Positions 2,989-62,567 of a DNA stretch of 64,000 nucleotides are shown piece after piece; the first letter of the stretch is position 1; each line of letters opens with the position of its first letter. Where the stretch lies: contig CANQBV010000003.1 in NCBI GenBank assembly GCA_947589595.1, positions 62,001 to 126,000 on the forward strand, written 5' to 3'. Under the pieces are notes generated by a model. That model had not been told where the DNA came from. It saw only the letters and a program-made list of their open reading frames with translations, and did not search any database. This DNA comes from an uncultured Clostridia bacterium (GTDB lineage Bacteria > Bacillota > Clostridia > Oscillospirales > SIG627). A program made the position numbers and the translations under genes.

Positions 2989-3008
2989 TCACCGACCTTT
3001 GAAAAAGC

Positions 3009-3051
3009 AAACCGTCCTTGACGAAGCCTTTTCTGTCAAGGACGGTTTTTT
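3009..3051 (+). terminator. Rho-independent terminator
   Basis: AACCGTCCTTGAC ... GTCAAGGACGGTTTTTT. Confidence 0.9.
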
Positions 3052-3150
3052 GCGCAATTTTCCGCTTGGGCGTATGGATCGCGCCCTTTTTTTGGTGCAG
3101 GAGAATTTTACCCCTGTTTCAAAGGGGGTTCCGAGAAAAAAGTTTCCGAC

Positions 3151-59960: not shown

Positions 59961-61086
59961 CTAAACTTTGACGATTGCTGGTGCACCAAAGCATTCTATA
60001 ATCGAACCGTTTACCTCTTGCAAGGTGACGGTTTTATTTGCTTCCCCGTAATTGAATGTGATGACCAGCTTGTCGTCGTAGAGATATATCGCTCATCATC
60101 ATTTCGCGGGTGTGCCGAACGACAAGATCCTCGATCCATTCCTTTTTGACCGTCTTTTTATCGCAGGCATGCCGGTACTTGGCGCCGTTGCATTTATAGT
60201 ACCGATGCACCGCTCCGCTTCGACCCGTACCGCTTTCGCCGGTCATATAGCGCCCGCATTTGCCGCACAACAGTTTGGTGGTCAGCAGGTAGTCGTTCTC
60301 CGCTTTGTGCCGCGCCGTGGCTCTCTTGTTTTTCTCGCGCTCGGTCTGCACCTTGTCGAATAACGCCTGCGGTACGATCCGGGGGATGCCGTCCTTTCGG
60401 ACGATATCCCGAAACTTGTATTCCCCGATATACCGACGGTTCTTCAACATATCCGTGACGATGTTTATGGTGATTTTTGCGCCGCGAGAAGTGGTCAAGC
60501 CTTTGGCGTTCAGCATCTCCACAATTTCCTTGATCGTTTTTCCGTTGGCGTATGCCTCGAATGCCTGTACCACGTAGGGCGCTTTCACGGCGTCCACCTC
60601 AAAGAATTGTTGATCGTTGATGACGTACCCGATAGGGACGGCGCCGCCGTTGAATTTGCATTTCAGCGCGTTCTCGGTCATCCCTCTGCCGACCTTTTCG
60701 GCAAGCTCGGCGGAATAGTATTCCGCCATCCCTTCCAGCACCGATTCGAGCAAAATGCCTTCCGACCCCTCGGAGATATTCTCCGTTGCCGAGATGACTC
60801 TGACGTTGTTCTTTTTCAAAACGTTTTTGTAATGCGCCGAATCGAACCGGTTTCGGGCAAACCGGTCGAGCTTCGATACAATGACCACGTCGAATTTCTG
60901 TTTGGCGCTGTCTTTGATCATCTTTTGGAACTGCGGGCGGTTGTCCGTTTTGGCGGATAAGGCGCACGTGTCGAAGATCGAAATTTCTTCTCGCTCTGCA
61001 AAAGCGTAGCATTCCCGAAGCTGACCTTCGATGCTTTCCTCTCGCTGATTGTCTGAGGAATATCTCGCATAGATCACGCCGATCAT
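59961..61086 (-). pseudogene. Large serine recombinase, internally deleted/frameshifted
   Basis: N-terminal resolvase domain (VIYARYSSDNQREESIEGQLREC; SKLDRFARNRFDSAHYK), recombinase and zinc-ribbon domains, then frame break near 60089; C-terminal tail YLYDDKLVITFNYGEANKTVTLQEVNGSIIECFG persists in another frame (59961-60086). Confidence 0.82.
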
Positions 61087-61451
61087 TCGTTCTTCACCTC
61101 TTTCAGAACCTGAACCACGGTTTCTTTCAACCGGTCGTTGAACAGCGTTCCGGGGGTGAAGCACATTGCCATCAATGCTTCCAAACCGCCTTCTTGTGAA
61201 AGAGCCTCTTTGATCGCCGTGTGCTTTCGGATGCCCTGCGGGTCATCGGTTCTTCCGAAGATGTAGTCCAGCGACACATCAAAAAAATCGGCATACCACA
61301 GCAGCTTTTGCAGCGGCGGTTCGGCAATGCCGGTTTCGTACCGACCGATGGTCGCCTGCGTGGTTTCGCACAGATCGGCCAACTGTTTTTGCGAGTAACG
61401 GGCTTCCACACGCAGTTCTTTCAGCCGCGCTCCGACAATATTCATATTCAT
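61083..61451 (-). CDS. XRE-family HTH regulator
   Basis: LKELRVEARYSQKQLADLCETTQATIGRYETGIAEPPLQKLLWYADFFDVSLDYIFGR; ATGA overlap with recombinase. Confidence 0.92.
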   Translation of the reverse strand: MNMNIVGARLKELRVEARYSQKQLADLCETTQATIGRYETGIAEPPLQKLLWYADFFDVSLDYIFGRTDDPQGIRKHTAIKEALSQEGGLEALMAMCFTPGTLFNDRLKETVVQVLKEVKNE

Positions 61452-61608: not shown

Positions 61609-61776
61609 CTACGCTTTTCCGTTTTCCTCGGCGCATTCCTTCATCCACTTTTCAAATTCGGCTTTCCCTTCCCCGGTTTCCAGAAGCTTTTCGATTTCTT
61701 CTATAAATACGGCGCCAAGGGAGTTGAGGGCTTCTTCGGGAATATCCGACTTGAAAACAATCTTGGGTGTGTTCAT
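61609..61776 (-). CDS. Untracked 55-aa small acidic protein
   Basis: ATG preceded by AAAGGAGGTGTCGCC; MNTPKIVFKSDIPEEALNSLGAVFIEEIEKLLETGEGKAEFEKWMKECAEENGKA. Confidence 0.72.
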   Translation of the reverse strand: MNTPKIVFKSDIPEEALNSLGAVFIEEIEKLLETGEGKAEFEKWMKECAEENGKA

Positions 61777-61885
61777 GGCGACACCTCCTTTGCTAAGAAT
61801 TACCTCCCTTCCGCCGGAGGCAGGCTGTTCCGTTTTCCATTGGGATCTCTCCTTCCTAACTAAAAATCACTTTTTTATATCCCAT

Positions 61886-62253
61886 CATCTCAAAGCGAGA
61901 ATCCGAAGTCATCTCGTAGCGAGCGTGCGTCTTTCGTCATTTCAAAATGAGGAGCTTGCCTGAAATAAATCTAAAACAAATCCAACATTAATCTATAAGC
62001 GTCATTTCAAAATGGCAGCGCGGATTTTCGTTTCGAAAAGAAAGTCATCGGCATTTTCAAATGACTGTCATTTGAAAATTTTATTCCCATAAAGAAAGCA
62101 GACTGCGCGAAAAGCGCCGGACGAAAATTTGAAATTTTCATCCGCAAAAATCACAGTAGGGTTGGCCGTGTGTTTCACTTTGTGAACGAAAATTTTGAAT
62201 GAGGAAAGCAAAGACGCAACCCCGCAGCTTCCGGATGAATTTTCGTTCACAAA
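61886..62253. repeat. Palindrome- and direct-repeat-rich non-coding segment
   Basis: CATCTC(AA/GT)AGCGAG x2; CGTCATTTCAAAATG x2; perfect IRs at 62053-62079 and 62179-62194/62238-62253. Confidence 0.75.
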
Positions 62254-62295
62254 TGAGGCCACAAAAAATTTTCACACTTTTTCACCACAACGACC

Positions 62296-62324
62296 TTGCA
62301 AAAGTTCGTTTAACCGTATATAAT
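62296..62324 (+). promoter_or_regulatory. SigA-type promoter of excisionase-like gene
   Basis: TTGCAA, 17 nt, TATAAT. Confidence 0.65.
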
Positions 62325-62354
62325 ATTTATATAGAATGAAAAGGGGGATTTTTC

Positions 62355-62567
62355 ATGCTCGACGCAATTTCCGTAAAAGAAGCTGCAGAAAAATGGCAGA
62401 TTTCCGAACGACGAATTCAGAAGCTGTGCGAAAATGGCAGAATTGAAGGTGTGAAGCGGTTCGGGCATTCTTGGATGATCCCCGCAGACGCAAAAAAGCC
62501 CTGTGATTTAAGAAAACGCCGAAAGGCTGTGGGAAGCGAGGTGGAAGTTCGTCATGAATATCAATAA
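62355..62567 (+). CDS. Excisionase/MerR-like HTH protein
   Basis: ISVKEAAEKWQISERRIQKLCENGRIEGVKRFGHSWMIPADAKKP. Confidence 0.82.
   Translation: MLDAISVKEAAEKWQISERRIQKLCENGRIEGVKRFGHSWMIPADAKKPCDLRKRRKAVGSEVEVRHEYQ

Follow-up and report, generated by a model that had tools for sequence, protein, structure and literature searches.

Why should a non-coding gap beside the genes of a mobile element be crowded with palindromes, and what could such a stretch be for? The question is raised by positions 61886-62253 of the window (the whole stretch of DNA that was analysed, 64,000 nucleotides), a non-coding stretch within the gap 61776-62355 of two divergent genes (minus strand at 61776, plus strand at 62355). 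A recombination site, an origin, a MITE and a structured RNA had all been proposed for it, and here we weigh these possibilities against the gene context and the related loci of other genomes.

Repeats in the intergenic stretch

All five repeats reported by the first-pass annotation were found at their positions (Table 1), and they exceed what shuffling produces. Counting perfect inverted repeats whose arms reach 9 nt or more, the stretch holds three (the longest arm 16 nt), where 1000 dinucleotide shuffles averaged 0.23, which is an approximately 13-fold excess (P ~0.001). In addition, there are imperfect copies not listed before, namely GATTTTCGTTTCGAAAAGAAAGTC near 62023-62046 and the A/T-rich linker. 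The arms of the 16-bp inverted repeat match the ATTTTCGTNCACAAA site of related arrays, and on sequence grounds the repeat is a candidate recombinase-arm pair with abnormal spacing.

Table 1. Features of the palindrome array, its surroundings and its relatives (window positions unless a locus is named).
Feature	Position	Strand	Remarks
Large serine recombinase, internal deletion	59970..61100	-	Domains Resolvase, Recombinase, Zn_ribbon
XRE-type HTH regulator of the element	61083..61451	-	
Small conserved gene MNTPKIVFKSDIPEEAL...	61609..61776	-	
Mini-ORF leader (MENGTACLRRKGGNS, GCCTCCGGCGGAAGGGAGGT)	61782..61865	-	Common to different recombinase modules; 81% to L174:3251-3334
Short leader with mini-ORF	61782-61825; L004:1500-1540; L141:2133-2179; L174:3290-3334		
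CATCTC(AA/GT)AGCGAG, two copies	61886, 61910		Direct sequence check
CTCGCTACGAGATGA / CTCGCTTTGAGATGA drifted units	61886..61923	-	Align with CTGTCGTTTTGATATGA / CTTTTCGATATGA units of relative L174
CGTCATTTCAAAATG, two copies	61935, 62000		Direct sequence check
Pair of CATTTTGAAATGACG palindrome units around the A/T-rich linker	61935..62014	-	
Segment homologous to L174:1947-2132	61937..62123	-	76% identity, 191 columns
A/T-rich linker TTATAGATTAATGTTGGATT	61979-61998		No other match at <=4 mismatches in 424 kb of genome
GACTTTCTTTTCGAAACGAAAATC unit	62023..62048	-	90% identity over 21 nt to ATGACTTTCATTTCGAAATGAG unit of related arrays
13+1+13 palindrome ATTTTCAAATGAC-T-GTCATTTGAAAAT	62053-62079		Two head-to-head GTCATTTGAAAAT units, TCATTTCGAAATGA palindrome family
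CGGACGAAAATTT-G-AAATTTTCATCCG palindrome	62118..62144		Arm type ACGAAAAT/ATTTTC, as in the 16-bp inverted repeat
GAAAATTT-G-AAATTTTC	62123-62139		Core of the larger CGGACGAAAATTT-G-AAATTTTCATCCG palindrome
16-bp inverted repeat TTTGTGAACGAAAATT / AATTTTCGTTCACAAA	62179-62194 / 62238-62253		43-nt loop
Sigma-70-like promoter TTGCAA-17-TATAAT of the HTH_17 gene	62296..62324	+	Immediately outside the array
HTH_17 (excisionase-like) gene	62355..62567	+	Overlaps LysR gene
Inserted regulator-type genes of relatives	L094:2632-3930; L101:322-2078; L124:5690-7087; L145:3060-4375		
Conserved upstream non-coding stretch of relatives	L087:2069-3500; L096:2060-3440; L094:1000-2160; also L105, L089, L097, L177		

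The earlier note held that a single-copy, unconserved sequence with no compensatory changes would speak against its suggestions. The stretch is indeed single-copy in its own genome, but it is not unconserved, as its motifs and about 190 nt of it are kept in relatives. A copy of ATTTTCGTGCACAAA on contig 1 lies in coding-looking sequence. DNA searches of plasmid and phage collections with the stretch gave no match, and neither the window region nor the related arrays matched Rfam. Seven viral contigs carry the 18-mer TTTGTGAACGAAAATTTT with no palindromes alongside, and these were taken as chance. We found no description of the array in the open-licence papers that the literature search covered.

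Genes around the array and state of the element

On the minus strand, moving off the array, the mini-ORF leader is followed by the small conserved gene, the XRE regulator and the large serine recombinase. Compared with the reference L124, the serine recombinase has lost approximately 338 nt between 60088 and 60089 (60088-60095) and its frame is broken. The gene on the other side, previously called excisionase-like, does encode an HTH_17 protein, but this scores under the NCBIfam excisionase cut-off. The recombinase module to which the array belongs is the one on its left, and the HTH_17 gene is at most a possible member of the element. LysR homologues in other genomes have neither an HTH_17 neighbour nor an array, and therefore yielded no empty site; for the window itself, too, neither an empty site nor a product of recombination could be shown. 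A comparison of the two presumed ends of the element gave direct repeats of 8 nt only, so that its boundary could not be set.

The genome is a 1.43-Mb draft of 85.65% completeness, and the window stops 595 bp short of the contig end. No tyrosine recombinase of the array-linked family was found in the window or in the part of this 85.65%-complete genome that was covered.

Related loci and array architecture

A search of 98 related genomes led to G093, in which the small gene, XRE gene and serine recombinase are accompanied upstream by a gene for an XerC-like tyrosine recombinase, which in turn has TCATTTCGAAATGA palindromes and ATTTTCGTACACAAA sites ahead of it. Twenty-two loci with the XerC-like tyrosine recombinase were retrieved, chiefly from ruminant-gut Clostridia drafts, and the 15 upstream regions that were aligned have a single common layout, which runs from hairpins through an A/T-rich linker (TTATAGATTAAT..AGATT) and several TATGACTKTCATTTCGAAATGAG units to ATTTTCGTACACAAAATTATTTTCGTCA..TTGACGAAAAT-spacer-TATTTTCGTACACAG, the last site standing directly before the recombinase leader. 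The arms that border the recombinase gene, of the ATTTTCGT type, read TTRACGAAAAT-(15 or 16 nt, variable)-WTTTTCGTAYA; the spacer is 15 nt in 12 of the 13 matched sites and 16 nt in the remaining one, with at least seven different spacer sequences. Homologues of the small gene-XRE-serine recombinase module lie downstream in G113, G093, L095, L096 and L107, where the tyrosine recombinase gene precedes them; the array was traced upstream in all of these except L107, a locus only partly covered.

By profile the tyrosine recombinase is XerC/XerA-like, far under the equivalog cut-offs, and its SAM-like domain begins near residue 27. A sequence search of solved structures at E 1e-5 gave no relative, and no relatives were found in viral contigs, which contained XRE relatives at 40-51% identity only. 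More distant tyrosine recombinases (~40-47% identity) have arrays of similar style, and within 600 nt upstream of those at L143, L144, L146 and L178 there are no ATTTTCG arms. G357 (L141) is the exception, with a 16-mer identical to TTTGTGAACGAAAATT approximately 100 nt upstream of its tyrosine recombinase.

The motifs scored in the window were defined from the relatives and not from the window itself. The 22-mer palindrome unit ATGACTKTCATTTCGAAATGAG (<=6 mismatches) occurs six times in the 0.58 kb of the window region versus seven across 424 kb of the genome; the corresponding counts are 3 versus 27 for the arm site and 1 versus 0 for the linker. The palindrome-unit pattern was present in 9/394 genomes and its reversed control in 0/394, although two of the nine (G107 and G174) are probably chance, with coding-looking sequence and the other units missing.

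The alignable homology is to L174, a G145 locus from another family of the same order, where the segment lies upstream of an Xis/integrase module; the alignment reaches 123 bits, whereas none of 500 shuffles scored above 35.6. In L174 the mini-ORF leader precedes a Tn916-Xis-like gene and an integrase gene. As L174 shares both array and leader ahead of this module, the two are conserved even where another recombinase follows them. The stretch and its relatives are linked by homology, by common motifs and by a site upstream of the mini-ORF leader and recombinase operon; compared with L087-type loci, arm sites and palindromes are arranged in another order relative to the module. In G145, long inverted repeats (TTTCAAGAAAAC...) at L174:1840-1930 and 2990-3075 bracket the array, and the interval from array to leader contains GGGACATYCGTTATTACAT-like repeats. 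In several elements the leader GCCTCCGGCGGAAAxGGAGGT with its mini-ORF stands ahead of recombinase or excisionase genes that are not the same from one to the next, and translational regulation is a possible role for it.

In four loci (L094, L101, L124 and L145) the array is separated from the tyrosine recombinase by an unrelated gene that starts at or close to the arms. Three of these inserts are XRE-type regulators, with the HTH domain alone in common, and one is a sigma-factor-like gene; they have no DNA similarity to each other. The left junction falls inside the spacer in L124 and L145, just past TGACGAAAA[T/A]GCCCC, after ATTTTCGTACACA in L101 and within the first ATTTTCGT in L094. On the recombinase side L145 retains TATTTTCGTACACAG, L094 and L101 have weaker TTCACAG matches and L124 has the variant AACGAAAATGTGCGCAG. 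These junctions look as would be expected of a tyrosine-recombinase core site, a function that we infer.

Discussion

We consider it reasonably likely, with a probability of roughly 60%, that we are dealing with a divergent and probably decayed copy of the cis-acting region that controls integration (the attachment region) in a family of Clostridial integrative elements. Of the earlier suggestions, that of a recombination site belonging to the mobile element fits best and is supported in part: the motifs stand upstream of tyrosine recombinase genes in the relatives and an XRE/serine recombinase module lies at the left, but the window has no tyrosine recombinase and its arms are misspaced. The ATTTTCGT-type arms would be binding sites of the tyrosine recombinase, while the repeated TCATTT(C/T)GAAATGA palindromes and the A/T-rich linker would serve as accessory binding or bending sites shaping the recombination complex. 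The stretch may also regulate the recombinase operon downstream of it.

An adjacent tyrosine recombinase gene is found at the relatives L087-L105, L124 and L141 and not in the window, where the arm pairs are separated by 43 nt and 1-5 nt, as against the relatives' 15 or 16 nt. Given the lack of a tyrosine recombinase, the internal deletion in the serine recombinase and the abnormal arm spacing, the region is most likely a relic, and the element around it is broken. A recombinase supplied in trans, or encoded in the ~14% of the genome that the draft lacks, may be the alternative to this.

Compared, from general knowledge, with the tyrosine-integrase attachment regions of lambda attP and Tn916, the relatives have similar inverted core-type arms around a variable spacer of near-constant length, with accessory repeats and an A/T-rich linker nearby and the recombinase gene adjacent. 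Arm-binding integrases typically have an N-terminal extension, whereas the relatives' recombinase lacks one, its SAM-like domain standing too close to the start. The arrays also differ in their many palindromes of 20-25 nt and their hairpins, extending up to ~2 kb, and the window copy in having neither recombinase nor regular spacing. The XRE and serine recombinase (Resolvase, Recombinase, Zn_ribbon) module resembles the large serine recombinase elements of Clostridia; in contrast to these, the window's serine recombinase is internally deleted, and the relatives have a tyrosine recombinase in addition to the serine one, together with the palindromic array.

It is unlikely, though worth weighing, that the stretch is instead an oriT, a single-strand origin or a centromere of an integrative element, with the palindromes and hairpins as nicking, priming or partition-protein sites. 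Repeated palindromes and hairpins do adjoin mobile-element genes, and L174 has two paralogous small genes (33% identity, 99 aa, family unassigned) beside its array, in the manner of a partition locus. However, these genes were not found in 10 other genomes, several of which have the array, the proteins scanned beside the arrays showed no recognisable relaxase or rep domain, and the arrays follow recombinase genes.

We are more doubtful still of an operator or promoter region in which the palindromes bind the XRE repressor and small HTH proteins governing the divergent operons. The divergent intergenic site, the XRE gene in the module, the strong ribosome sites of the mini-ORF leader and the promoter next to the array are all in keeping with such control. 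Against this, the stretch has many palindromes over several hundred bp, up to ~2 kb in relatives, and the relatives' arm sites coincide with insertion boundaries. A role as operator or promoter may nevertheless exist in addition to the attachment role.

Just as speculative is a wider version of the attachment reading, according to which the array would serve as recombination platform for an integron-like system, so far undescribed, by which gut Clostridia acquire genes. The XerC-like recombinase would capture single genes at inverted ATTTTCGT arms with a variable spacer, by way of a long conserved hairpin and palindrome region, and the window would be a stranded platform that has lost its recombinase. 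The likeness to integron attI/attC sites is limited to the four single-gene cases, in which a foreign gene stands beside the recombinase at or near the arms; unlike in integrons, the recombinase is by profile XerC/XerA-like and far below the equivalog cut-offs.

A structured RNA of the element seems improbable. The stretch folds better than its shuffles (z -3.56 as single-stranded DNA and -3.77 as RNA), but the low energy is a trivial outcome of the palindromes. In L174, the sole alignable relative, the 13+1+13 palindrome has kept its right arm intact but its left arm has drifted, and since compensatory changes do not keep the aligned palindrome, a structured RNA becomes less likely. This pattern would suit protein half-sites better than an RNA stem, and one relative is thin evidence. 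With the folding energy in its favour and the uncompensated palindrome and the empty Rfam search against it, the RNA suggested earlier finds weak support. A neighbouring hairpin of the related arrays, absent from the window, keeps its pairing with 6/24 pairs doubly changed, although it also has broken cells and an unfavourable covariation term of +1.48. Hairpin parts of the related arrays may act as structured RNA or as single-stranded DNA. The long conserved non-coding region upstream in L087-type loci would also favour an RNA; like the hairpins, it is missing from the window. Approximately 1.3-1.5 kb of this region is conserved at ~77-82% among Clostridial drafts, a portion recurs in G192 (L145, ~68%) and G379 (L143), and an Rfam search with L087, L089, L096 and L105 gave no match; a large structured RNA or an origin is possible.

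Least probable of all are decayed functionless palindromes of the REP/MITE kind: the window element is clearly degenerate and the stretch single-copy today, but the 190-nt homology with another family, the common motif order and the absence of dispersal in the genome argue against them. The array is found together with recombinase modules and once in its genome, so we have set the MITE aside and read the stretch as a DNA-level module.

If the attachment reading is right, an unannotated non-coding region could mark an integrative-element family in gut Clostridia, and its arms with their variable spacer offer a testable recombination-site model for an XerC-like recombinase. In some loci restriction-modification genes and helicases are found near such arrays. 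Genes that look like defence cargo lie at L126:1637-4399, L177:4953-5942, L101:4648-7097 and L175:12036-14702; they include one for an MmeI-type restriction-modification protein and, on visual inspection of the translations, a probable C5 methylase and helicases. In G093 the XRE-serine recombinase block (L087:5484-7609) is inverted relative to L096, with a breakpoint that cuts the XRE gene. The G113 array adjoins an apparent tRNA-Leu gene at L124:7430-7520, a possible integration target.
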